This document shows positions 47,647-64,000 of a DNA stretch of 64,000 bases, in pieces. A program made the translations under genes and the position numbers. The notes beneath the pieces were generated by a model. It ran no database searches. It saw only the letters and a program-made list of their open reading frames with translations, and had not been told where the DNA came from. The stretch is from positions 902,001 through 966,000 of the forward strand of contig NZ_CP132910.1 of NCBI RefSeq assembly GCF_030846775.1. Reading direction: 5' to 3'. The stretch is from Geothrix sp. 21YS21S-2 (lineage in GTDB: Bacteria; Acidobacteriota; Holophagae; Holophagales; Holophagaceae). Numbering within the stretch: position 1 is the stretch's first letter; the number at the start of each line of letters is the position of its first letter.

Positions 47647-47694
47647 TGGAGGCGCCGATCGGAATCGAACCGATGAATGGCAGATTTGCAGTCT
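47647..47694 (-). other. tRNA-Cys 3' fragment: attachment site of the integrated element
   Basis: Read on the minus strand, this is the 3' part of tRNA-Cys: anticodon stem-loop AGA CTGCAAA TCT (anticodon GCA), T-arm with GGTTCGATTCC, and acceptor strand ending GGCGCCTCCA with encoded CCA. No 5' half (acceptor GGCGCC plus D-arm) exists upstream; AT-rich element DNA begins in the anticodon stem. This is the expected att remnant after integrase recombination in a tRNA gene. The complete tRNA-Cys should be rebuilt at the far end, beyond 64,000. Confidence 0.85.
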
Positions 47695-49489: not shown

Positions 49490-49990
49490 TCAAAATCCCT
49501 GACCTTGAATGAAATTTAATGCCTGCTCTCTTGTGACTTGTGTATATTTCTTTTTATCATTGCAGAGCAGAATCATGTTGCGATTATTTGCTCTATTTGC
49601 CGTGGCATATGAGGCGTGAATCCAGGTTCCGTGAGGATTCTGATCTGACATGCCCTCCAAGATAAGCTGATCAAAGATTATGCCTGCCTGGAGAATGAGC
49701 CGTAGGGCCTTTAGTAGTGGCATATCAGCAAGAACCATATCCAGAGCTTCAGCCCTTGCGTGTTGGCTTGTAGACACTCCACCTACCAGCCTATTAAGCT
49801 CGTCACATCTCCAGCCGGAATTGATGTGTATTGGCGTATTCAGTGCCTCTCTGATTGGTTCAAAGAGAAATTCGGCAAGGATCTTGGCTCTTGGAATCAA
49901 ATCATCTGGAAGCGAATTATCAATTCCATTCTTAACAGCAATATCAGAATGTTCCAATTCTTCTTTTGAAAGGTGTTTCGACAATTGCAT
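49490..49990 (-). CDS. Phage endolysin, M15A-type peptidase
   Basis: A 166-aa single-domain protein: N-terminal KHLSKEELEHSDIA, ILAEFLFEPIREALNTPIHINSGWRCDELNRLVGGV, then zinc ligands in SQHARAEALDM (His and Asp) and WIHASYA (His). This is the Peptidase_M15_3 type found in phage lysins that cut murein stem peptides. The usual G after SQHxx is replaced (SQHARAEA), which is unusual but spares the ligands. No signal peptide. Last gene of the minus-strand phage operon; the 37-aa membrane peptide at 52,715 could act as a holin. Confidence 0.75.
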   Translation of the reverse strand: MQLSKHLSKEELEHSDIAVKNGIDNSLPDDLIPRAKILAEFLFEPIREALNTPIHINSGWRCDELNRLVGGVSTSQHARAEALDMVLADMPLLKALRLILQAGIIFDQLILEGMSDQNPHGTWIHASYATANRANNRNMILLCNDKKKYTQVTREQALNFIQGQGF

Positions 49991-49991
49991 A

Positions 49992-50654
49992 CTATCTACC
50001 AGACATTAACCTATCAAGCTTTTCATTAATATTTCGTAGCTCAATTGAAATCTGAATCTCAAGCTTTGCAATTCTTACATCATGGTCTGACATCTTTGTA
50101 TTGGCACCTTCTGAATGATTTTCTAGCATGTCCAATCGTGCTGTAATAGCCTCAAGTGCAATTTCAACATCAGTATTGGCCTGTTCAACCATTGTCTTTG
50201 AATGGGTTGCACACTTTGAAGCCTGCTTATCTTCCTGAGTAGATTGTCTATCTTCTATAGCCTTCTTAAAGAGCGGTCTGATTTCTGGGCTATTGGAGAT
50301 GGACGGAGCGAGTCTGTCATCTGCGAATTTCTTCATAAGGGTATCTTTTGGGAAATAGATACCATTTGGACGAGGTTTGTAGTGTGTGTAGTAGAGAATA
50401 TAGGCAGTAATTACCTGGGATTTGCCTGTCTGACTTGCCAGCATAAATGTAATTCTTTGGTATCTCTTATCATTTCCTACGGCCAACATTTCATACTGAT
50501 ATGGCATTAGTGTTGTATTGTATCTGCCAGCAAACCTCGACTCACCACCCGCAACATACAGGAATATATTTGCCCAATCAGCAGGGTTAATATCTGGCTT
50601 TGGCTTGATAATAGTCAATACACGCCTAAGCGTGTCCTTAATTCTGATATCCAC
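49992..50654 (-). CDS. Truncated GpA-type terminase large subunit fused to a coiled coil
   Basis: A 220-aa protein. Residues 1-~115 match the start of GpA-family terminase ATPases: ADWANIFLYVAGGESRFAGRY, MPYQYEMLAVGND, the Walker A-like FMLASQTGKSQV and FADDRLAPSISNSPEIRPL. Then similarity stops and a long coiled coil follows (about 118-220: EIALEAITARLDMLENH, RIAKLEIQISIELRNINEKLDRLM). Walker B, the C-motif and the nuclease domain are absent (full proteins are ~600 aa). Either an internal deletion joined two genes, or this is a specialised protein that interferes with a helper terminase. Confidence 0.75.
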   Translation of the reverse strand: MDIRIKDTLRRVLTIIKPKPDINPADWANIFLYVAGGESRFAGRYNTTLMPYQYEMLAVGNDKRYQRITFMLASQTGKSQVITAYILYYTHYKPRPNGIYFPKDTLMKKFADDRLAPSISNSPEIRPLFKKAIEDRQSTQEDKQASKCATHSKTMVEQANTDVEIALEAITARLDMLENHSEGANTKMSDHDVRIAKLEIQISIELRNINEKLDRLMSGR

Positions 50655-51197
50655 TTAAATACTACTTTCTTCTATATCTTCATCTTCAATAAACACATTT
50701 TTGATAAATGTTGCCTCATTCATTTTCTCGAAAATTGCATCAATCTGCGCCTGGAGAATTGACGCTTTCTCGTCTTCTGTCTGTCCATCGTGGATGAGCT
50801 TTGAGGCTAGATCGCCAAAGCTTTCACGCATGGTATTAGCGGCTGAAATGGTTCTTGACCAGCCATCTTCAATATCACGAGCAGGCAGAAGAGCCTCTTT
50901 CTCTCGTTCGTATTTCAGCTTCTCTCTATCAGCTTCAATCTTGAGCTTCACCAATCGAGCTTGGTCTAATGGTCCCAAGTCTTCATCTTTCAAACCTGAT
51001 CGATACTTAACATACCAAGCAAGAACATCTTCAAGAACATAGTAATTTTTTGTTCTACCCACCTTTTCTGGATCAATACGAAATGGAAGACCCTTATCTT
51101 TAACCAAATTTGATATATGTTGTGGTGATAAACCTAATATATCATGAACATTATCAAGGGTCATATTATCTGTGTTAAGGTTTTTAATTATTGCCAT
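50655..51197 (-). CDS. Phage terminase small subunit (Nu1-like)
   Basis: A 180-aa protein directly upstream of the truncated large subunit (no gap). N-terminal winged-helix-like HTH (DNVHDILGLSPQHISNLVKDKGLPF) is followed by DQARLVKLKIEADREKLKYEREKEALLPARDIEDGW, the pattern of phage DNA-packaging Nu1/TerS proteins. The C-terminus is helical and ends acidic (FIEDEDIEESS). It would bind the packaging site of the element. Confidence 0.75.
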   Translation of the reverse strand: MAIIKNLNTDNMTLDNVHDILGLSPQHISNLVKDKGLPFRIDPEKVGRTKNYYVLEDVLAWYVKYRSGLKDEDLGPLDQARLVKLKIEADREKLKYEREKEALLPARDIEDGWSRTISAANTMRESFGDLASKLIHDGQTEDEKASILQAQIDAIFEKMNEATFIKNVFIEDEDIEESSI

Positions 51198-51418: not shown

Positions 51419-52084
51419 CTACTTCTTTGGCCTCATGCTCTTGAATACCTGTTCGATAGCCTGCGTGAAGACCTCTTGGTATTCGCTTGAGACAATCTGG
51501 TTTGCCGTGTCTATGAAGTGGGGCTTCACAGGTCGAGTGATGCGGCTGGTCATGCGATAGATTGGCTTGATGGTCCTCTTCCCTGTTCTCTGGAAGATCA
51601 TGAGAGAGCCTGTGTCGCTCTTCAGTGAGAAGGTTCTATTGCCGCCTGTCTGGTGGGGCTGGATCGTGCCAGAGCCAAAGGTCAGGTTCCGCATAGCCAG
51701 AGCATTGGAGCCTCTTACGATCTTGTTTGTGAGCTTTCCAGCTTGAGCAGCCAAGAGAGATCGACCATTAGCCGGTGTGTGCGCCTGCCCTTCTTCAAAG
51801 GATGCCAATTGGGCATACTCAACAGAGATGGTGACATTCCACTTTGTCTTTGTTGCCCTATTCACCTTAGATATCTTGATTGAATTGAATATGAATTTCT
51901 TGCGTGAGTCTTTGATCTTGAATGAGGATTCGATACGCTCTCTCATTCTCTGTTGGAATCTATCAGCCAACATATTGAGACCTCGCTTAATAGCCTCTGG
52001 AATCTGGTCTTCTCTCTGGATATTTTTGAAGTATTCAATTACTGGCTGGACTTGCATATCAACATTAACAATCATCATCTTCAA
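51419..52084 (-). CDS. HK97 gp10-like / minor tail (head-tail joining) protein
   Basis: A 221-aa protein. IPEAIKRGLNMLADRFQQRMRERI, then EYAQLASFEEGQAH, and a C-terminal tail-domain region TRPVKPHFIDTANQIVSSEYQEVFTQAIEQVF resemble gp10-like tail-completion or minor-tail proteins. Basic overall. It is one of only two structural-type genes in the element. A ~220-bp gap separates it from TerS. Assignment is by overall pattern, not by an invariant motif. Confidence 0.5.
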   Translation of the reverse strand: MKMMIVNVDMQVQPVIEYFKNIQREDQIPEAIKRGLNMLADRFQQRMRERIESSFKIKDSRKKFIFNSIKISKVNRATKTKWNVTISVEYAQLASFEEGQAHTPANGRSLLAAQAGKLTNKIVRGSNALAMRNLTFGSGTIQPHQTGGNRTFSLKSDTGSLMIFQRTGKRTIKPIYRMTSRITRPVKPHFIDTANQIVSSEYQEVFTQAIEQVFKSMRPKK

Positions 52085-52718: not shown

Positions 52719-52828
52719 CTTTTATTTCTTTCAATATACAAACAAATCAATAATGTTAATAACGCGATATCAAGTATTACGATAAAGGCCCATACCGTAT
52801 AACCCATCATCAATAACAGGAACCACAT
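52715..52828 (-). CDS. 37-aa hydrophobic membrane peptide (holin-like candidate)
   Basis: A small gene starting ATG 52828, overlapping the RusA stop (TAATG), and ending in TGA that overlaps the next start. The product is nearly all hydrophobic (FLLLMMGYTVWAFIVIL, ALLTLLICLY) with a basic tail ERNKR. Precise double translational coupling argues it is real. A small membrane peptide in the same operon as an endolysin could be a holin or pinholin; this is inference. Confidence 0.6.
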   Translation of the reverse strand: MWFLLLMMGYTVWAFIVILDIALLTLLICLYIERNKR

Positions 52829-53394
52829 TATGGAGTCTGAATAGCGACCTGGATATCCATGATCTCTATTTCTATCTTTTCTTCTACACTACAAATCTTC
52901 TGGAGGCACAAACCAAAGACCTGTGAATCGTCCAAGCCAGCCTCAATCTCTCTCAAGGCTTCAAATAGGGCATCAACAGCCGCCTTCTCATAGCTGGCAG
53001 CATCCTTGATCCTGATCCCACCGGCTTTTGTGAACCAGGTAGGACAGTGGAGCCGTAGAACCAGGCACAGGCTTTGACCTTTGAGAGCCTGAACATCACC
53101 AGAGAGGCCATGAGCTTCAATCTGTTTCAGAATCTCATGCTGAGCTATGGCTTTCCAGATTCTTCCTTCTGGTGTCAGGACTCGATATCGCCCTCTGGTC
53201 ATGTAAAGCTGATTAATAGATGGTGGGAAAGAAGATAGCTGGAATACAAGCATTGATTGATGGTCTCTAGAGATTAATTCTGTCTCTTGATCCGAGAGAT
53301 GAGACGATTTCTCAAATTTATTTTCAAAAATATCTGATATGCTCTGCCCATTCCGGGAGTCAGAGCATGTTTCTTCAAACGGTTCAGCAGGCAT
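52828..53394 (-). CDS. RusA-family Holliday junction resolvase
   Basis: A 188-aa frame; the RusA fold begins near residue 49 (VFQLSSFPPSINQLY), so the true start may be ATG 53253 (about 141 aa, usual RusA length). Motifs: PPSINQLYMTRGRYRVLTPEG, the acidic KDAASYEKAAVDALFEAL and DDSQVFGL, matching the metal-binding positions, though the normal D-x-D-N reads D-A-A-S here. It resolves branched DNA before packaging. If the longer start is used it overlaps the divergent gene at 53,367 by 28 bp. Confidence 0.75.
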   Translation of the reverse strand: MPAEPFEETCSDSRNGQSISDIFENKFEKSSHLSDQETELISRDHQSMLVFQLSSFPPSINQLYMTRGRYRVLTPEGRIWKAIAQHEILKQIEAHGLSGDVQALKGQSLCLVLRLHCPTWFTKAGGIRIKDAASYEKAAVDALFEALREIEAGLDDSQVFGLCLQKICSVEEKIEIEIMDIQVAIQTP

Positions 53395-54263
53395 GCTCTA
53401 ATTGCCATCCGGTTCATGGTGCGATTCAGCAGGCCTCCACTTCAAGCAATACCTTGGCCTGGATAGGTGCAATTGGGGCAATCACCGGAGGCATAGGAGC
53501 CTGTGTGGCAGCAATAATTTCCGGGTTTGCAGCCAGCATCAGCCGAGAATCAGCAAAGGCAAGCGAAGATGCTTTAGTCGTCAGCCGTGAAGCCGTTCAA
53601 TCAAGCAAAGATGCGGCAGAAGCCAGCCGGATATCTGCCGATATCATGCAAAAACAGTATCAAGATGAATCGGACCAAAAGAGGCCCTTGCTCGAATTCG
53701 GAAAGATTGAATTGACGAATAAAGATAGAGATAATTACTCTCAATACCATGACCCAACACGGTGCGTATTGCACAGATTCACAATACCCGTCAAGAACAA
53801 GCGTCAAGAATATCTTGAAGATATTTCATATATATATGCATTTTATAGCGACAACGAAATTATCGATATTGGCTTCAATTTTCACTCAATAGCCTATTCT
53901 TGCAGGGATCATTACATTATAGACGAGATAATTCAAAATCCAAAAAAATACCCCAACAAAGATGTTTATTTGTTTTTGTTTGTAAATGTTCACGACATTA
54001 ACGGAAAGAGCAAATTTGCAATATATGGCGAAAAATTTGATAAATCATGCTGCAATAATTTTAATATTACCATTAGCAAAAAGCTTGAACCAATCCAGCA
54101 TGAATTGACAGCCGCTATTGGTGAAATATATGCAGAAATCATAAATATGAGCAAAGCACATCTAAGGTATAACAAAAGAGATAAAATGATTAGACTATTA
54201 GAACAAGACGCTTTATTCATAAAAAGCCTTGAACAGTGTAGAAAAATAAATCCAGATTTATAG
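53367..54263 (+). CDS. Membrane-anchored protein, family A member 1 (CxxCH, TM, coiled coil, soluble domain)
   Basis: A 298-aa protein of unknown function; GGGAG precedes ATG 53367. N-terminal segment QACSNCHPVHGAIQQ (residues 8-22) contains C-x-x-C-H-x-x-H. A TM helix follows (about 30-54, AWIGAIGAITGGIGACVAAII), then a charged coiled coil (about 56-100, SRESAKASEDALVVSREAV) and, after KRPLLEFGKIEL, a beta-rich soluble domain to the end. Positive charges after the TM favour N-out/C-in. It is the first of three tandem paralogs on the plus strand. Confidence 0.7.
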   Translation: MFLQTVQQACSNCHPVHGAIQQASTSSNTLAWIGAIGAITGGIGACVAAIISGFAASISRESAKASEDALVVSREAVQSSKDAAEASRISADIMQKQYQDESDQKRPLLEFGKIELTNKDRDNYSQYHDPTRCVLHRFTIPVKNKRQEYLEDISYIYAFYSDNEIIDIGFNFHSIAYSCRDHYIIDEIIQNPKKYPNKDVYLFLFVNVHDINGKSKFAIYGEKFDKSCCNNFNITISKKLEPIQHELTAAIGEIYAEIINMSKAHLRYNKRDKMIRLLEQDALFIKSLEQCRKINPDL

Positions 54264-54278
54264 CCAAGGAGCCAGAGC

Positions 54279-55196
54279 ATGTTACTTGAGCCAATTAAAC
54301 AGGCTTGTTCTAATTGCCATCTGGTTCATGTGGCAATTCAGCAAATCCAACAGGTCCAGGCACCTCCCATGCCAACACCGGGTTTTCTTTCATTGAATTG
54401 GGGCAACCTGGCCTCTCTTGCTGGTGCCATTGTCGCTGGTGTGGCGGCCTATCAAGCAAAGATTGCAGCAAGGGCCAGCCGGGAATCAGCAGATGTGATG
54501 AAGAAGGAATACAAACAGCAGCTAAATCAGCAGAAACCAGTAATGGATTTTGAAAGCATCATATTTCATAGTGACACAAAGAATGGCCAGATATTAGGCT
54601 CAAAAATATATCCAAGATTTATTACCGTCAAAATCAGTAACATCAAGGGTGAAAATATTAATTACGTTGACTATGTTTATGCGGTTACAGACGATTCAAA
54701 GGTGCTATCTATTGGTTATGAAAACATGCCTCTTCAATACAGTCATTGTTATAGGCATACGCTTAACATCGACCTAGAGAATGATAGCAATTATAATCCA
54801 GAGAATATGTTTTTATTCATTTTTCTATCTGTTATGGATTCATCGAATAGAGAAGCCTTCTCAATATATGGTCAGCAGGTTAAACCTGGAAATAGCTTTG
54901 ACGCACTTGAAACAGAAATATCAAAGCCTATTGATACAAATTATTTGATTCTTGATTCAATTAGAGAAATCATCTGGGACCACGTAATAGTGAATATGGA
55001 TACATACGACCAATTATGTCTATCTCAAATATTAAATCAGGACCTTGATTTCCGTGAATTTAGAAAGCAACCTCAATACAAAGATTTTCTGCCTGACATT
55101 TGGGAAATTGTTGATAAGGAACCTGAAGAAGAGAAGAAGTCTATATGGTCGAAATTCCGAAAAAGAGTGAAGCTGAAAGAAGACCAAATAGTATGA
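54279..55196 (+). CDS. Membrane-anchored protein, family A member 2
   Basis: A 305-aa paralog of the preceding gene, AAGGAG before ATG, 15-nt gap. Residues 8-22 repeat the N-terminal motif (QACSNCHLVHVAIQQ) at identical positions; the nucleotide sequence there is also conserved. A P-rich linker, a TM (about 41-60, LASLAGAIVAGVAAYQAKI) and a short coiled coil (ASRESADVMKKEYKQQ) lead to QKPVMDFESIIF and the soluble domain. The C-terminus is basic (SIWSKFRKRVKLKED). Soluble domains of members 1 and 2 are clearly diverged, as if binding different partners. Confidence 0.7.
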   Translation: MLLEPIKQACSNCHLVHVAIQQIQQVQAPPMPTPGFLSLNWGNLASLAGAIVAGVAAYQAKIAARASRESADVMKKEYKQQLNQQKPVMDFESIIFHSDTKNGQILGSKIYPRFITVKISNIKGENINYVDYVYAVTDDSKVLSIGYENMPLQYSHCYRHTLNIDLENDSNYNPENMFLFIFLSVMDSSNREAFSIYGQQVKPGNSFDALETEISKPIDTNYLILDSIREIIWDHVIVNMDTYDQLCLSQILNQDLDFREFRKQPQYKDFLPDIWEIVDKEPEEEKKSIWSKFRKRVKLKEDQIV

Positions 55197-55228
55197 TGTA
55201 TCCTCTTACGCATCAGTGGAGATAGACC

Positions 55229-56059
55229 ATGTTCCTTGATCCTGTCTACCATGTGGCTGTTCAAGCGATGCCTCACCAAAGCTGGCTCTCTACAAATGGG
55301 CTAAGTGCCCTTGCAGCTACTGCTTCATTCTTGGCTGCTGGTGCAAGCTGGCTAAGTGTCTACTGGGCGAACAAGGCCAGAAAAGAGGAATTGGATAGGA
55401 GCAAACCAGATTTACAATTTGGCTATATGAATGTTGAAGATTCATCATCAGTCGAAAAAGATTTCAACATGGTTGACTTGAAATTCATGCTATACAACAC
55501 GAAAAGAAACAAAATCCAGAGTATAGAGCAGACAATATTTATAACCTATCCGAGTAATGTAAAAAAAGATACAAGCAGATACCACTTTGACTACATGATA
55601 GGAACAGATGGGCATCAAATTGATCTACAACACAATATATTGCCATGTCCAGAACCAAAATCATTGATAATAATGATGCTTAAGACAACAGATGTATTTG
55701 GCAATACTGGTGAAAACATTTTCACATTATATTTTATAATAAAAGGAATGGCAATTCAATCTGGTGATGAAATGGAAATGTGCATGAAAGAAAGAAGACC
55801 TGTATTATATCAGGCAAATTCGGCTGGACAATTGGCACTTGGCGAAACAGCTTTTGTTCCATATCTACATCCAGCCATTATTGATAGACTTGTAATATGC
55901 CTAACAGATATTCACGATGATAAAATCGATAAGATGCTGTTTGACAAGGACTTGATTAATGCTCTACGCAAATTCAAATTTCGCAAGATACTTGGCAGAT
56001 TTAACATAATAAAACATATTCGTGTAGCAATAAAAAGCATGATACACAAGATGCATTAG
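55229..56059 (+). CDS. Membrane-anchored protein, family A member 3
   Basis: A 276-aa protein, GGAG before ATG 55229. It keeps the layout (MFLDPV start, TM about 25-45 GLSALAATASFLAAGASWLSV, charged linker NKARKEELDR, then SKPDLQFGYMNV and a beta-rich domain) but lacks the CxxCH segment, having VYHVAVQAMPHQSW instead. It ends inside a hairpin. Function unknown; co-oriented and closely spaced with members 1 and 2, so one transcript is likely. Confidence 0.7.
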   Translation: MFLDPVYHVAVQAMPHQSWLSTNGLSALAATASFLAAGASWLSVYWANKARKEELDRSKPDLQFGYMNVEDSSSVEKDFNMVDLKFMLYNTKRNKIQSIEQTIFITYPSNVKKDTSRYHFDYMIGTDGHQIDLQHNILPCPEPKSLIIMMLKTTDVFGNTGENIFTLYFIIKGMAIQSGDEMEMCMKERRPVLYQANSAGQLALGETAFVPYLHPAIIDRLVICLTDIHDDKIDKMLFDKDLINALRKFKFRKILGRFNIIKHIRVAIKSMIHKMH

Positions 56060-56102
56060 GCCAATCATACACATAATATCTCTACCTGTAATATTGGCCT
56101 AA
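56056..56102 (+). terminator. Hairpin at the end of the family A operon
   Basis: TTAGGCCAAT (56,056) and ATTGGCCTAA (56,093) form a perfect 10-bp stem with a 27-nt loop that includes the stop codon of member 3. There is no T-run, so it may be a processing or protective 3' structure rather than a Rho-independent terminator. Confidence 0.5.
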
Positions 56103-56152
56103 ACAAGATGATTTAACATCTATTGACCTATTCAATTCAATCTCTTTGTATC

Positions 56153-56187
56153 GTAAAACCCACTCGCTTCGCTCGTTAGGGTTTTAC
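56153..56187. repeat. Perfect 9-bp inverted repeat with CTCGCTTCGCTCG core
   Basis: GTAAAACCC (56,153) and GGGTTTTAC (56,179) enclose ACTCGCTTCGCTCGTTA, itself partly palindromic. A second REP-like hairpin (CCTCGCC-TTC-GGCTCGG, about 56,192-56,208) follows immediately. The pair is GC-richer than its surroundings and resembles bacterial REP elements. Confidence 0.7.
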
Positions 56188-56786
56188 TCTTCCTCGCCTT
56201 CGGCTCGGAGAAACACTAAAAGAATAATCTTTTAATGAAGATAACCTATGACTTTCCCCAGCAACCATTCTCTAAAAAATGGTCTGACTATCAGACCTAA
56301 AAGAGATTCAATGGCTACTGGTGAAGTGGTATAGATTCAACCTACCGGATTTCTAAAGGTGAAGGTCAATTTGATTCCTGAGTCTAAATTGATTGCTTCT
56401 GGAGAGGGTCACGCTGTTCCCCACTTTAGTCTTACTCCAGACTTCACAGCCTGGACATGACGGTAATTCCCTAACAACCAAATCCGGTAGCAATTAGGGC
56501 ATTCACTCTTACGAGTGGCTATAATAACAAGTCGAAGTAGATTATAGCTTCCTGAGACGGTTCCTAAAACATCTGCCGCTATCATTCCTCGGCTACTTTC
56601 CAGGTCTTGGCCTCTATAATATAATTCGGACGATTGAACCGTCCGTAAAAGCGATTTTGAAAATATATTTTTCAACGTGATCAAAGCCACTCTCTACAGA
56701 AATGGCAGACCAGAGATTATCATTAACATTTGTAATGGTCATACATTGCATAATAATCAATAACACTATTCTATAACAATTCCATT
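56188..56786. other. About 600 bp without a convincing gene
   Basis: After the hairpin pair no frame looks like a protein. A 93-codon minus-strand frame (56,409-56,690, GTG start) contains CPNC and ends ...GVRLKWGTA, faintly like the decayed 3' end of an IS605-type tnpB gene, but it lacks the rest of any such domain. A small dyad CGGACG/CGTCCG lies near 56,628-56,646. The stretch may hold a transposon remnant or a structured RNA. Confidence 0.35.
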
Positions 56787-57542
56787 CTAATCTTCTAAAT
56801 ATGAACCTTTTGGCTTCATAACAAATTTCTTCAATTCTTCTAAATAATCACCCTTGGGTTCCATATTTTTTAATAGCTCAATAGCCTTCACCGGATCAAG
56901 ACCAAGATCAGAGGCAACCTCTTCAAAAATCAATTGATCTAATGCAGGATCAAAGTCTTTCGTCGCAATTCGTGTATAATTTTCAATTAAATCAATAATA
57001 AAATTAATATATTTGCGTATTCTATCCAATTCTTTCCTTTTTGCATCATCAATCCCTTCATCAAAAGTGGATACGGTGCCAAGCAAGGGCGTCAACATGA
57101 AAGGGATAGACCCCAAGAGCATTTCAATGCGATCTACAATCACTTTATCAAGATAGGCTTTATGATTTGAGAAAATAGCATTACATTCTGAGAATGCTTT
57201 AGTGTAATTCTTTAATTCTTTTTTGAATTCATCAGGTCTTTCAAATGCGATACTACCTCTCATGCCGTTATACGATTTTGACAAGACGTGGGTAGCGATA
57301 GAAAATGCCCCAACAAATTGAAATCTCTTCTCCTGTTCAAGCTTGTGAGAAAATGCTTCCTTTCCCAAATCAGATTCCAGCCTCTTCATCTTTTCATCAA
57401 TACCGCTTTGGTAATCTTTTAGATTCTTCTCTACTGCCTCTCGGATCTTTTCGTCCGTAGCCTTGACCAGGGTTTTCAGGCTCCACCAGCCATAGACTCC
57501 AAGCCCAAGTAAGCCGATCTCTCCCCATATCAGTCCAATCAT
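56787..57542 (-). CDS. TM + coiled-coil protein of the element
   Basis: A 251-aa protein of unknown function: N-terminal TM (about 4-22, LIWGEIGLLGLGVYGWW), a long coiled coil (about 23-75, KIREAVEKNLKDY, EKMKRLESDLGKEAF) and an all-helical domain (about 80-251). The C-terminus carries a near-duplicate MEPKGDYLEELKK / VMKPKGSYLED. Different from family A but with the same single-anchor plan. Its ATG overlaps the stop of a 43-aa hydrophobic peptide gene (ATGA). Confidence 0.65.
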   Translation of the reverse strand: MIGLIWGEIGLLGLGVYGWWSLKTLVKATDEKIREAVEKNLKDYQSGIDEKMKRLESDLGKEAFSHKLEQEKRFQFVGAFSIATHVLSKSYNGMRGSIAFERPDEFKKELKNYTKAFSECNAIFSNHKAYLDKVIVDRIEMLLGSIPFMLTPLLGTVSTFDEGIDDAKRKELDRIRKYINFIIDLIENYTRIATKDFDPALDQLIFEEVASDLGLDPVKAIELLKNMEPKGDYLEELKKFVMKPKGSYLED

Positions 57543-57670
57543 GTTCGGCTCCGAAGCGAATCAACCTGTAGTAGCACGACCAGAACCATCAAGCAAGAGA
57601 TGCCTACTCCAAGTCCGGCCAAAAGTCCCAAGATGGAACCAAGGCCACACGGCAATTCAAGAAACACCAT
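57539..57670 (-). CDS. 43-aa hydrophobic membrane peptide
   Basis: ATG 57670 to TGA 57,541-57,539, overlapping the next ATG by 4 nt. The product is almost one continuous hydrophobic stretch (GSILGLLAGLGVGISCLMVL, then VVLLQV) with a basic end DSLRSRT. The tight coupling to the TM/coiled-coil gene suggests a functional pair; no strong ribosome site is visible upstream. Confidence 0.5.
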   Translation of the reverse strand: MVFLELPCGLGSILGLLAGLGVGISCLMVLVVLLQVDSLRSRT

Positions 57671-57752
57671 TACAGTGAATCTCTAAATTAATTTCATCCC
57701 GATTCAATAGACCCGAATCGTATTTATGAATTAAATATCAGAGATTCACACA

Positions 57753-57905
57753 ATGGACAATGATACACGCAAGATACTATTACAAAAGCTCAAGTATGAT
57801 TTAGAAGCTCTTGATGCAGCAACAGAGAGTGTCCTAACAGATATTGAGACAGTAGAACAGCAGAAGATAGACATCATGCTCCAAATCCTATACGGGCTGG
57901 AGTAG
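57753..57905 (+). CDS. 50-aa acidic coiled-coil peptide
   Basis: ATG 57753 to TAG 57,903-57,905. The product is helical and heptad-like (KILLQKLKYDLEALDAATES, TDIETVEQQKIDIMLQIL). It is coupled to the HNH gene: the junction reads TAGTGATG. Unknown function; possibly a partner or leader peptide of the HNH protein. No strong ribosome site, so moderate confidence. Confidence 0.5.
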   Translation: MDNDTRKILLQKLKYDLEALDAATESVLTDIETVEQQKIDIMLQILYGLE

Positions 57906-57907
57906 TG

Positions 57908-58441
57908 ATGAGCGAAACCATAAGCCGTAAAGAGCAATTAGAAGAAGATGTATACGCACTTCTCAAGAAGCTGGACATGCTTCAAACAAGGGTATTGTCT
58001 GTCGCTTGGCACATGATTCCCCATCTCCAGTCTGAATTCCCAATGCTCCCACGAGGGAAGGTCAAGCGAGAGGATGAAGAGAGGTTCCTTGAGGATTTCT
58101 ACCAGGCCTACAGCAAGGGCACCTTTGATGCCTACCTGAAGAAGCGAGAAGAGAGATGGGCCTTCTACCGCTCTCCAGAATGGGCAGAGAAGAAGGCAGA
58201 GGCCTACAAGGTCTTTGGGCACCGCTGCATGGCCTGCGGAGCCTCTGGCGGGCCTCTATCAGTCGATCACATCATCAGCCGCAATGAGGCACCAGAGAAG
58301 GAGCTTGAAATCAAAAATCTCCAGATTCTCTGCATCTTTTGCAATAAGGGAAAGAGTGGTTCCAGACAAGATTACAGGAAGAGAGAAGACCTGCTAAGTC
58401 TAATCAGGCACCTTGGAATCAAGCTCAACAAAGCAAGCTAA
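57908..58441 (+). CDS. HNH endonuclease
   Basis: A 177-aa protein; ATG 57908 has GGAG upstream. A helical N-terminal half (about 1-85) precedes the HNH motif: zinc CMACGAS, LSVDHIISRNEAPEKELEIKNLQILC and the second zinc pair CIFCNKGKS. This is the standard H-N-H with a double CxxC zinc knuckle. Phage HNH proteins aid cos cleavage by terminase, home, or attack foreign DNA. GC usage is higher than in the flanking genes. It ends next to the convergent family A member 4. Confidence 0.85.
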   Translation: MSETISRKEQLEEDVYALLKKLDMLQTRVLSVAWHMIPHLQSEFPMLPRGKVKREDEERFLEDFYQAYSKGTFDAYLKKREERWAFYRSPEWAEKKAEAYKVFGHRCMACGASGGPLSVDHIISRNEAPEKELEIKNLQILCIFCNKGKSGSRQDYRKREDLLSLIRHLGIKLNKAS

Positions 58442-59344
58442 TCAAAGATCACCCAATCTAATCACATTGATTTTGGCAGAAGCAACCTGCCTTTTTGATG
58501 TTTTCCCCATTTTTCTACTTGAAGCTGGGCGCATTCGCCGTCCAGAACCAACAACCTTAATAAGTCCAACCAATGAAAGCATTGATAATAATTCAGTATT
58601 GATATGTTTTTCAAAATATTTTTCAATTCCAACATTAACGATTGGATTAATATCGCCATTACTGCAATACAGCATGGATGGCATATCCGTAAATTCCGAT
58701 TTGCCTGAGTATCTAATTGTTCTTATTTTGGCATACATGTAATTTGTAAGCATTTTGCTATTCGGCGCATAATGTATAAAATACACACCCCTACTAATAA
58801 GACCGTCTATTCCTTCAGCTTCAACGATCAATACAATTTCTACGTTAGATTCTTTATACCTTATGCGTGGAGAGCGAACAATAATAGCAATTGATGACTT
58901 GTTGCCTCCAAGGACTTTATTACTCAATATATCGGTAGAGCCTTCATTCCTTCCTATCTTGCCATACATGGGTATCGTCTCTAAATCAGTCGCATCAGTC
59001 GATATTCTTTTCCCATCTTTCATTATTTCAAATATAACATATCTGATATTATTTAATGGCTTATTTCTGATGTTTTCAAGCTCAAACCGTATTGCAATAT
59101 TGTTAAAAAGACCATCTTGATATGTCAAATTGTCCTTCAATACTAGAATGGGTTTGTCAGCGTCTTCACGTTTTTGTCTTTCTATTTTTTGCTCTCTGTT
59201 ACTTCTAATCCCATTGTAAATTGCGAATATAGCACCGCAACCAGTAAATAATGTGAACAGTCCAGAGAATTGAGCAATTTTTTCCCATAATGCTTTTGGC
59301 GGGACCTGTTCTACTACAATTCGTATTACTTCTCCAGGTAACAT
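58442..59344 (-). CDS. Membrane-anchored protein, family A member 4
   Basis: A 300-aa protein; ATG 59344 follows GGAG by 5 nt. The plan matches the three tandem genes: short N-terminal outside segment, TM (about 26-45, FSGLFTLFTGCGAIFAIYNG), basic/charged linker RSNREQKIERQKREDA, then DKPILVLKDN and a beta-rich soluble domain. The C-terminal 40 residues are strongly basic (GSGRRMRPASSRKMGKTSKR). It lacks CxxCH. Encoded on the opposite strand, 2.4 kb from the tandem copies. Confidence 0.65.
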   Translation of the reverse strand: MLPGEVIRIVVEQVPPKALWEKIAQFSGLFTLFTGCGAIFAIYNGIRSNREQKIERQKREDADKPILVLKDNLTYQDGLFNNIAIRFELENIRNKPLNNIRYVIFEIMKDGKRISTDATDLETIPMYGKIGRNEGSTDILSNKVLGGNKSSIAIIVRSPRIRYKESNVEIVLIVEAEGIDGLISRGVYFIHYAPNSKMLTNYMYAKIRTIRYSGKSEFTDMPSMLYCSNGDINPIVNVGIEKYFEKHINTELLSMLSLVGLIKVVGSGRRMRPASSRKMGKTSKRQVASAKINVIRLGDL

Positions 59345-59364: not shown

Positions 59365-59958
59365 TCATCCCAGGTAATTTGCTTTCTCCATAAGCATTTT
59401 CAAAATATCCAATGGCCTTTGACGGTCCTTCTCTGTAAAAGCAATTGATGGACGGTAATACTGACCAACGCCAGTCCTATAACCATCATTCCAAGGTATA
59501 TTTATAATCGATTCTACTTCCAATAGATATTTTTCCATCATGTCAACAAATTCAGGCCCCAAATGAATCATTTGCATTCTTGAAAATGTAATCAATTCTT
59601 GTGTCCTTTGACGAATATTACCAATGGCGTATTTGGGATCATCTTGCGATTTTTCAATCTGCCAATAGCTTTTGACGTTATTATATATTTGGTCCAATAC
59701 CTCCTGGTAATGTCTTGAAATATCATAATGAATCTTTTGCATTCTTCTTTCTTCAATTTTTGCTTCTTCCATTGCCTTTAATTCGGCAGACCTGTCTATC
59801 TTTGCCAATTCAAGCTCATTTCCCAATTTAATCTTTTTCACTTCTCCAGCGTAAACCAGATATTTCTCAAATCCTTTGTATGCAGCGTATGCAATAACAA
59901 GAGCAATAGATAGCACTAGGCCATACGTCTTTACAATGTATATCCATAGATTTTCCAT
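59365..59958 (-). CDS. TM + coiled-coil protein of the element
   Basis: A 197-aa protein with GGAG 8 nt before ATG. TM about 10-28 (TYGLVLSIALVIAYAAYKG), a strongly charged coiled coil (about 38-75, LELAKIDRSAELKAMEEAKI), then a helical domain with YQEVLDQIYNNVKSYW and a C-terminal region with NIPWNDGYRTGVGQYYRPS. Not recognised. Same strand and 20 nt upstream of family A member 4, so probably co-transcribed. Confidence 0.65.
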   Translation of the reverse strand: MENLWIYIVKTYGLVLSIALVIAYAAYKGFEKYLVYAGEVKKIKLGNELELAKIDRSAELKAMEEAKIEERRMQKIHYDISRHYQEVLDQIYNNVKSYWQIEKSQDDPKYAIGNIRQRTQELITFSRMQMIHLGPEFVDMMEKYLLEVESIINIPWNDGYRTGVGQYYRPSIAFTEKDRQRPLDILKMLMEKANYLG

Positions 59959-60099: not shown

Positions 60100-60720
60100 C
60101 TAAGCAAAAATCGATTTTAACAATGGGATCACGAGCTTAAAAACAAATGATCCGAAATAAATTATAATAGTAATATTAAAAACGCTGAAGGCAGTAACAA
60201 GAATTAGATAAGCAATTTTCTTGCTTTTCTTAAACACATTTTCACCATCTCTTACAATATTCCATTCTTTTTTTAACATATACGCAAATGCATCTATCAC
60301 TGACTCAAATTGCGCTATTCTCAATACCGAGTCAGCAAATCTAGCCTTACCGTTTGTATCAGCCTGTATTTCCTTTATCATGGAAACAAGTCCAGAATGC
60401 TCTGTCGGATTTAGCCTGAGTATTATGCGATTAGCCAGGGCATTCATCTTTGATAGTGCGTCCATGTGTGTTTCTGGTTTTATTTCCACATGGTTCACAG
60501 TATGTATAACATGGTTGCCATGGTCCGTAAATCTATATAATGCGTTCACCAAACCAAAGAAATCTGAAACATCAATTCTTATCGCATCTATCCAAGCTTG
60601 CCTAAATTTGGATATCTCATTTTCCTTTGAAATAATCATGCTAATATAGGAGAAGCCACCCGCGATTAGTGCGGCCGAAATAACACCCACTACGGCTAGA
60701 AATTCCTTGTAATTTTCCAT
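60100..60720 (-). CDS. Multi-span helical membrane protein of the element
   Basis: A 206-aa protein; ATG 60720 is chosen because GGAG lies 6 nt upstream. TM1 about 8-30, then ENEISKFRQAWIDAIRIDVSDF, a pattern seen in many uncharacterised small membrane proteins of phages and defence islands (K-I-x-x-F-R-Q-x-W-I-D-x-L/I-R). A helical soluble domain (HVEIKPETHMDALSKMNALANR) is followed by a C-terminal TM hairpin (IAYLILVTAFSVFNITIIIYF and VFKLVIPLL). Function unknown. Confidence 0.65.
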   Translation of the reverse strand: MENYKEFLAVVGVISAALIAGGFSYISMIISKENEISKFRQAWIDAIRIDVSDFFGLVNALYRFTDHGNHVIHTVNHVEIKPETHMDALSKMNALANRIILRLNPTEHSGLVSMIKEIQADTNGKARFADSVLRIAQFESVIDAFAYMLKKEWNIVRDGENVFKKSKKIAYLILVTAFSVFNITIIIYFGSFVFKLVIPLLKSIFA

Positions 60721-60745
60721 GTTTTCTCCCATCCATTATTATTCA

Positions 60746-61255
60746 CTACAGATTTTCACGTTCTTTGGTTAATCTTGTTCCGTATATTATTTTCAGGAAA
60801 TTCAATTTACCGTCTTCACTACTAATAAGTAATAACGTTATATCAATTTTTCCCAAAATCCAGATCATTTCTTTTCTAGTAAATGACGCCACATCGGTTC
60901 GCTTTGGCATTCCGTATTTATCCGATAAGCTTTTGAACAAATTACTATACGTATTTACGGCTGAAGCTCTACCAATTTCAGAGGGAGCAGACAAGTGAAC
61001 CTGCTTCAATTTATCATTTTTAATATAAAACATAGCCGTAAAGGATTCACCATCGAGCATCACATCTTTCAGAATATACGGAGACGTTGAACCATCACTC
61101 AATGGGCTATCTTCTGGATTAGGAACCAGCCCTTTAATGGTTTTCAATAGCTCCTTTGTAGACATTCCTGCCCTTGCCTCTTTCCAGAGTGCCTGGGCAT
61201 TGGCCATATTGGTAAGCAGACAGGGAACCGAAAGAAATAATACAAGTGGTCTCAT
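60746..61255 (-). CDS. Exported small protein, GM-x-x-x-E (SmpA-like) type
   Basis: A 169-aa protein; ATG 61255 is preferred since GGAGAGG lies just upstream and a signal peptide (RPLVLFLSVPCLLTNMANA-QA) follows. The mature part begins EARAGMSTKELLKTIKG, the G-M-s-x-x-E pattern of SmpA/OmlA-like repeats, and later has LSDKYGMPKRT. It resembles the divergent lipoprotein at 61,379. Role unknown; envelope protein carried by a mobile element. Confidence 0.6.
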   Translation of the reverse strand: MRPLVLFLSVPCLLTNMANAQALWKEARAGMSTKELLKTIKGLVPNPEDSPLSDGSTSPYILKDVMLDGESFTAMFYIKNDKLKQVHLSAPSEIGRASAVNTYSNLFKSLSDKYGMPKRTDVASFTRKEMIWILGKIDITLLLISSEDGKLNFLKIIYGTRLTKERENL

Positions 61256-61378
61256 GACCTCTCCGGCTTGGTTGGAATCTGGAGAGATGGTAGTCCCATC
61301 CTCTCTTAAATCCAAGAATCTTTGGTTGACCAAATCTGGTTCTGCTAATCTCGTGGCATCCATCAGACAGGAGAACCC

Positions 61379-61981
61379 ATGAGATGCACCTACCCTGCCC
61401 TTCTCCTATGCCTGGTTCTGGCCTGTGATCAGAGAGCCACCACACCACCCGCGCAGGCTATAGCTCCCGCCGTGGCCCCTACTCCTGTCGTCCCTGCCCC
61501 ACCACCTACGCCCTATGGCATTAAGAAGATTTTTGCAGGCATGACCTTGAAGGAATTCATGGCAGCGAAGCCAAACATCTATCTTACTTTTATGTCCGAC
61601 GGCGTTAAGTGCTACACCATAAAAGAGACAATTGCAGGCGTGAAGTGTGAACCCATTTGTTCTTTTGAGGATTATGGAGACGGCAAGATCCTAGACCGAT
61701 TACATTTTTCAATTAAAGATTATGACTATAGCTCAATCAGAGATGCCATCATTGAAAAATACGGTTATCCATCAAAGGCTGAAAAGGTAACGAAGCATAA
61801 TGCGATGGGAGCATCATTTCACGGTGAAGAGCTTGAGTGGAGGAACAGCATCAGCTTCATTAGGGCTGAACAGGTTGGATCAAAGGTATCTGAATCTTCC
61901 TTCAGCTTTGGGTATACGGACGCCAAGCATAGAACGTCAAAAGAAGATTTAGCCAAAGAAAAGAAAAAGAAGGATATTTAA
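61379..61981 (+). CDS. Lipoprotein, GM-x-x-x-E (SmpA-like) type
   Basis: A 200-aa protein with AGGAG before ATG and a lipoprotein signal (lipobox LVLAC, Cys 16). A Pro/Ala linker (about 20-46) leads to KIFAGMTLKEFMAAKP, then EKYGYPSKAEKV and a beta strand region ELEWRNSISFIRAEQ. The fold is likely the same as the divergent exported protein; together they form a head-to-head envelope pair sharing a 123-bp promoter region. The C-terminus is a lysine-rich tail. Confidence 0.65.
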   Translation: MRCTYPALLLCLVLACDQRATTPPAQAIAPAVAPTPVVPAPPPTPYGIKKIFAGMTLKEFMAAKPNIYLTFMSDGVKCYTIKETIAGVKCEPICSFEDYGDGKILDRLHFSIKDYDYSSIRDAIIEKYGYPSKAEKVTKHNAMGASFHGEELEWRNSISFIRAEQVGSKVSESSFSFGYTDAKHRTSKEDLAKEKKKKDI

Positions 61982-62011: not shown

Positions 62012-62611
62012 TTAATTATAGACCTTTGTTTTCTTTATCATTTCCAGGAATTTAAGATGGATTGCACTTGTATTTTCAGCGTATTTCTTCATATCAATTG
62101 AATATATTGCCGCTAATGGCCCAGTGGTGATATAAACAAAATCAGACTTAACATCTTTGACAATTCCATCGATTCCGTCGATTACATTTTGGTCTCCAGA
62201 CAAAAGATGTAAATCATATAATGTTAATTCAATAGATTCCAATTCATGACCTATTTCCTGTGATAATTGATTGACCTTGCTTGGATTTGTGCTATAAGAA
62301 GCATCAAATCTAGGGTCACGATAATTTGGATCAATCTTTCCATTAAATTCATTTGAAATTTCACGTCTATAGCCTATTATTTTATTAATGCTTTTATAAA
62401 TTGATATATAATCACTTTTGGCAAGATCAGCCTTTTTGAGGGTAATCTCATTTTTTAATTGATTTTTGTTTGACATGTAGCTTCCAGCTATCGCAAGGAT
62501 ACCTCCAACCATTACTGACATCACCGGCATTAGCATCTCGCTAACCCTTTTCTGTTTGCCTTCATTAACATTCCTCAATCTATTAAAAATATAATACGGC
62601 TTTCTACGCAC
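62012..62611 (-). CDS. TM + helical domain protein of the element
   Basis: A 199-aa protein; GTG 62611 is chosen because a full AGGAGG lies 6 nt upstream. Basic N-terminus, TM about 27-46 (LMPVMSVMVGGILAIAGSYM), then a charged linker NKNQLKNEITLKKADLAKSD and a helical domain (ISIYKSINKIIGYRREIS, SKVNQLSQEIGHELES). Unknown function; fourth of the non-family-A single-anchor proteins. Confidence 0.65.
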   Translation of the reverse strand: MRRKPYYIFNRLRNVNEGKQKRVSEMLMPVMSVMVGGILAIAGSYMSNKNQLKNEITLKKADLAKSDYISIYKSINKIIGYRREISNEFNGKIDPNYRDPRFDASYSTNPSKVNQLSQEIGHELESIELTLYDLHLLSGDQNVIDGIDGIVKDVKSDFVYITTGPLAAIYSIDMKKYAENTSAIHLKFLEMIKKTKVYN

Positions 62612-62710
62612 TGGAAACCTCCTATGTGAAATCCTTAGCTTCCCGAGGAGAAAAGACACCCAATCTTCCGACCTCCGGTTTTGTGCCCTACCCTACTCCA
62701 AAACCCCAAA

Positions 62711-63697: not shown

Positions 63698-64000
63698 ATG
63701 CCAGCACCAAAGCTAAAGGCACCAATTATTAAGCTTGCAACAAAGGAAGAGGCTGTAGCTAAAGACAGGGTATCCAGGGGCGGATTGAAGAAGAGAGGCC
63801 GATACTACCACTATCGATTTGAGGTAGAAGGCCATGAATACACAGGCTCCACCAAACAGGAGACCTTGAAAGAGGCTAAGAAAGAGCTAGAAAGGCAGAG
63901 ACAGAAGATCCACCATCGGACCAAAGGAACACCTTTCAATCCCCTACTTTCCGAGCTAATCACAGAATGGGAGAAGACCCAAAGAGCGGACAACCATTCA
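63698..64000 (+). CDS. Tyrosine-type phage integrase (N-terminal part; continues past window)
   Basis: ATG 63698 with AGGAGAG upstream; 101 codons are open to the edge. KRGRYYHYRFEVEGHEYTGS then TKQETLKEAKKELERQRQK is the arm-site-binding (AP2-like) N-terminal domain of phage integrases, and PLLSELITEWEKTQRA begins the SAM-like core-binding domain. The catalytic domain lies outside. Its position by the expected intact tRNA-Cys end fits the integration model. Confidence 0.85.
   Translation, partial: MPAPKLKAPIIKLATKEEAVAKDRVSRGGLKKRGRYYHYRFEVEGHEYTGSTKQETLKEAKKELERQRQKIHHRTKGTPFNPLLSELITEWEKTQRADNHS

Follow-up and report, generated by a model that had tools for sequence, protein, structure and literature searches.

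Many new phage-defence proteins come from the cargo of prophages, and orphan operons carried as such cargo are candidates for testing. The closest described proteins include PdpSau, which is encoded by a prophage, is anchored in the membrane and stops phage replication while membrane polarity changes (PMC10127798), and SieA, an inner-membrane protein that blocks DNA entry (PMC10883804). SieA types that are less than 30% identical were alike in their phage target specificity (PMC10883804). Here we analyse four genes of Geothrix sp. 21YS21S-2, A1 to A4, that likewise code for proteins with a membrane segment and lie in a prophage remnant, within a window of 64,000 nucleotides (contig NZ_CP132910.1, positions 902,001 to 966,000, forward strand). 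Our verdict is that the A genes are real, phage-borne, without detected relatives, and of an ordinary kind.

Results

A prophage remnant in tRNA-Cys

The element measures 17.49 kb (about 17.5 kb), has a GC content of 41% and sits in tRNA-Cys. The GC content falls from about 70% to about 41% between two exact 48-bp repeats (contig positions 949647-949694 and 967137-967184), of which the right att partner lies beyond the window, within the intact tRNA-Cys gene. A tyrosine integrase is encoded at the tRNA-side end of the element; it shares 31-33% identity with its best matches in 198 other genomes of the phylum, a distant relationship. The att repeats, the integrase and the phage genes (small terminase subunit, a fragment of TerL, endolysin; Table 1) identify the element as a prophage and set the bounds of what the first-pass annotation had described as a phage element. 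Since the element ORFs scanned gave no recognisable gene for capsid, portal or tail tube, the element most probably represents a decayed prophage that carries cargo. The unrelated coiled C-terminus of the TerL fragment adjoins the endolysin, and looks like the product of one in-frame deletion of the whole morphogenesis block. A contig search found no viral contigs related to the integrase or to the TerL fragment, and the element was not seen in the other phylum genomes sampled. The tRNA was the sole match in an Rfam scan, and scans for sigma-70 promoters and terminators gave results at chance level.

Table 1. Features of the prophage remnant and of its cargo genes, in window coordinates
Feature	Position	Strand	Remarks
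Left att	47647-47694	none	exact 48-bp repeat, equal to the tRNA-Cys 3' half
Endolysin-like peptidase M15	49490-49990	-	
TerL fragment	49992-50654	-	ends within the GpA ATPase domain; fused to a foreign C-terminus
Small terminase subunit	50655-51197	-	
Minor tail / tail completion protein	51419-52084	-	
RusA-like resolvase	52828-53394	-	divergent from A1; true start probably internal, near 53253
5' end of A1	53356-53431	+	covers the ribosome-binding region and the initial ~22 codons; identity with the A2 5' end, 54268-54343, in 61 of 76 bases
A1	53367-54263	+	298 aa; CSNCH leader, TM ~33-51, long coiled linker, KRPLLEF, predicted beta-sandwich ~108-225, helical C-terminus
A2	54279-55196	+	305 aa; CSNCH leader, TM, linker shorter than that of A1, QKPVMDF, domain; full-length A1 paralog
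A3	55229-56059	+	276 aa; leader, TM, linker related to A1/A2; SKPDLQF; very basic C-terminus
A4	58442-59344	-	300 aa from ATG; A1-A3-like layout, DKPILVL, basic C-terminus
B60	59365-59958	-	TM segment, apparently helical; directly upstream of A4, same strand, 20-nt gap
Tyrosine integrase	63698-64000	+	396 aa, PF00589; runs past the window, end would be 64888

Layout of A1 to A4

All four ORFs were confirmed as intact, with plausible ribosome-binding sites. A2 starts 15 nt past the A1 stop and A3 32 nt past the A2 stop, and A1-A2-A3 are predicted to form one small operon. As the first-pass annotation had described, each of the four proteins has a short N-terminus, one transmembrane (TM) helix, a charged linker and a KP motif; the N-terminal TM helix is the single hydrophobic segment in each. 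Lys and Arg residues number 2, 4, 5 and 4 (A1 to A4) in the C-terminal flank of the TM segment versus 0, 0, 0 and 2 in the N-terminal flank, a charge distribution consistent with a predicted N-out/C-in topology. The motif that follows the TM segment, [KR]P-x-[LM]-x-[FL], reads RPLLEF in A1, KPVMDF in A2, KPDLQF in A3 and KPILVL in A4. Such a motif within 40 aa of the TM segment was present in about 1% of shuffled A3 or A4 tails, so that alone it is a modest clue; similar motifs were also found elsewhere, in B60, S61 and S62.

A1 and A2 are clear full-length paralogs (27% identity over 275 columns, blastp E 4e-21; 40 SD above shuffles). The leader and linker of A3 scored 5.6-6.3 SD above shuffles against A1 and A2, with 0 of 400 shuffles as good, while in the A3 domain shuffles did equally well in 161 and 337 of 400 cases. 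A4 matched the A1/A2 profile at E 0.07, versus E 0.12 for the unrelated neighbour B57, and pairwise shuffles gave 4.4 SD for A3-A4 (1 of 400 as good) and 3.9 SD for A2-A4 (2 of 400). Kinship of A4 to A1-A3 is suggestive only. The proposed four-member family would therefore really consist of two paralogs, a third protein with the same type of anchor and a fourth that resembles them in layout: the grouping held for A1 and A2 over their full length and for the A3 anchor, while the A3 domain scored no better than shuffles and A4 barely rises above background. Tandem duplication and a membrane anchor, also put forward at first pass, were supported.

Search for relatives

No meaningful family match was found for A1-A4 in Pfam, PHROGs, PADLOC or NCBIfam, in line with the first reading of the proteins as belonging to no recognised family. 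Weak matches to the TM and coil stretch in these four collections were dismissed as low-complexity. The best value among the PADLOC defence models, 0.0056 for LeoBC, covered TM and coil only and is not meaningful; the suggested role in superinfection exclusion or defence thus found no backing in these models. Nor did a search of the phage collection give a sequence match between the A proteins and superinfection exclusion proteins.

Viral contigs scanned with A1, A1+A2, A3, A4 and the four-row alignment yielded no relative, and the same was true of genome contigs (about 85,000 species genomes, short-pattern scans) searched with A1+A2, and of both genome and viral contigs searched with the degenerate pattern CSNCHxVHxA[IV]Q. 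As these contig scans depend on short peptides that match almost exactly, distant relatives would escape them and may exist. No relative was found in phages by tblastn (E 9 at best in one search) or in plasmids (E 3 at best in one search), no A1-A4 homolog in 60 relatives and 396 phylum genomes, no match among solved structures searched by sequence, and, among the terms tried, no matching description of these proteins in the literature. With no homologs, there is no recurring neighbourhood to back a function.

Predicted fold of the soluble domain

The AlphaFold2 model of A1, built on an alignment of A1 and A2 only, has a mean pLDDT of 46. In this model, residues ~108-225 form a multi-strand beta-sandwich that starts at the KP motif, with pLDDT values of about 54-73 per 10-residue block. 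The A4 model (A3 as second row, without A1/A2; pLDDT 36) shows beta strands that begin at the KP motif, and its structural neighbours are Ig-like. When the A1 model was compared using Foldseek and VIA-align, many sandwiches tied (C2, Z 8.9; GH2 sandwich, 7.9; TMEM106B, 7.8). PDB fold matches to C2, RhoGDI, ApaG, TRAP, Asf1 and MtrC domain I were put down to a resemblance that beta-sandwiches share in general and were rejected as a sign of family membership, and a BFVD structure search gave no usable match. A common build of the A1 and A4 domains is plausible from these low-confidence models, which argue for it weakly because beta-sandwiches are so widespread and neither model is of good quality. 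Of the beta-rich domain of about 200 residues that had been ascribed to each protein, the models thus recover a beta-sandwich for A1 and A4, in both cases at low confidence. Neither has a housekeeping match. Unrelated folds or a housekeeping family would have refuted the first-pass reading; it is not refuted, but models of this quality do not suffice to confirm that the folds are related.

Neighbouring genes

Four more orphan proteins with one or more TM segments are encoded on the minus strand of the cargo region (56787-57542, B60, 60100-60732 and 62012-62659); judged by inspection, their soluble parts are apparently helical. An HNH endonuclease-like protein (PHROG 144; 57905-58441, plus strand) is also encoded among the cargo genes. 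The products of two divergent neighbours, 60746-61363 (minus strand) and 61379-61981 (plus strand), show weak mutual similarity (E 0.065), and the latter resembles a lipobox protein at its N-terminus (LVLAC) and weakly matches PHROG 36303. A3 and B57 are separated by about 730 bases (56060-56786) with several hairpins, where no convincing gene or Rfam match was found.

Discussion

The best reading of the A genes is that they are ordinary lysogenic-conversion cargo, perhaps for superinfection exclusion. We consider the architecture and the cargo status, taken alone, to be probable. The whole statement, in which a decayed prophage carries as cargo an A1-A3 operon whose membrane-anchored products, with a cytoplasmic beta-sandwich, would protect the lysogen from other phages, is tentative, and we would place it somewhat short of an even chance. 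Loss of the morphogenesis genes with the cargo ORFs intact was counted in its favour, as were the low-GC element with its att repeats and integrase, the tight spacing of the A genes and their conserved ribosome-binding region, the homology of A1, A2 and the A3 anchor, the predicted beta-sandwich of A1 and, weakly, of A4, the further orphan TM proteins beside the A genes and the published examples PdpSau and SieA; the lack of a defence-family match and of homologs, the generic superfold, and homology of the A3 and A4 domains at a background or suggestive level were counted against it.

As we picture it, the small A1-A2-A3 operon would have arisen by tandem duplication, and each protein would be held in the inner membrane by its one N-terminal helix, with the N-terminus outside. 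The linker may space or oligomerise the protein, and the Ig-like beta-sandwich would bind a partner in the cytoplasm. The likeliest job would be to shield the lysogen from other phages at its inner membrane, through superinfection exclusion or an abortive response. The first-pass annotation had further proposed that divergence of the soluble domains reflects target diversification. Divergence by itself gives no support to that proposal, because diverged SieA types share the same specificity (PMC10883804).

The element is a remnant, so its cargo could be unselected. The A genes might then be leftovers with no host role, kept because the remnant is recent, as the truncated TerL, the missing morphogenesis genes and the absence of the element from the other phylum genomes sampled would allow; however, none of the four ORFs is broken, each has a plausible ribosome-binding site, and the leader and anchor are conserved between the duplicated copies, and we regard unselected leftovers as unlikely. 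It is conceivable too, although quite unlikely, that the A proteins serve the phage itself, in lysis, membrane association of replication or virion assembly, and not host protection. The genes are found among phage genes, beside the RusA-like gene, and a TM anchor is compatible with several phage processes, but the PHROGs lysis, replication and assembly families gave no meaningful match and A1-A3 run against the direction of the phage genes that remain.

The leaders of A1 and A2, predicted to be outside, carry CSNCH, a CXXCH heme-attachment motif (53394-53408 in A1, 54306-54320 in A2), followed by a conserved His. The first-pass annotation had passed over this feature. The stretch QACSNCHxVHxAIQQ is the best-conserved between the two proteins (13 of 15 residues identical, versus 27% overall), and among the long ORFs of the element CxxCH occurs only in A1 and A2. 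The host carries adjacent ResB and CcsA genes (System II heme attachment), and in the case of the bacterial System II synthase CcsBA a limited stretch that contains CXXCH proved both necessary and sufficient (PMC8112865), so that heme attachment would be possible if the leader is exported. These points, together with the predicted N-out topology, favour a reading in which A1 and A2 bear covalent c-type heme on the outside CSNCH and redox state, heme or phage-induced stress is sensed or relayed through the membrane to the domain inside. Yet A3 and A4 are without the motif, the leader is short and has no evident distal ligand, the topology is predicted only, and the identity of the block could stem from recent conversion. 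Local gene conversion could lie behind the high leader identity since A1/A2 codon identity is higher in the conserved block than elsewhere (10 of 14, 71%, versus 25 of 61, 41%; p 0.07). We find a heme-bearing A1/A2 very unlikely, and the more specific idea of a prophage-encoded heme/redox sensor guarding the inner membrane, with a minimal System II c-type heme site linked to an Ig-like cytoplasmic domain, highly improbable. Heme on the A1/A2 leader, with export predicted from flank charge, is a lead, not a finding, and whether two phage-borne CSNCH leaders really carry heme c is a cheap and specific question.

Should the A proteins do no more than follow the pattern common for lysogenic-conversion cargo, the reading that we prefer, the finding would be an ordinary one. 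At the level of fold, the A1 model resembles the luminal domain of TMEM106B, which is TM-anchored and Ig-like/LEA2-like, and C2 domains. Sequence identity to these is about 7-13%, and with ties to many unrelated sandwiches and a model pLDDT of 46 no family is assigned to A1. P22 SieA, HK97 gp15, Tuc2009 Sie and TP-J34 Ltp, which act in superinfection exclusion at the inner membrane, are also small prophage-encoded membrane proteins; SieA, however, has three TM helices (PMC10883804), whereas the A proteins have one TM segment and a large soluble domain. Similar in layout are PdpSau, an abortive-infection protein of a Staphylococcus aureus prophage, and AbiP, likewise prophage-borne; both combine a membrane helix at the N-terminus with a soluble cytoplasmic domain. 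Their C-terminus is positively charged, as in A3 and A4. The likeness is one of layout: PdpSau has an OB-like region and is predicted to be N-in (PMC10127798), whereas the A proteins, present in several copies, have a putative beta-sandwich and are predicted to be N-out.
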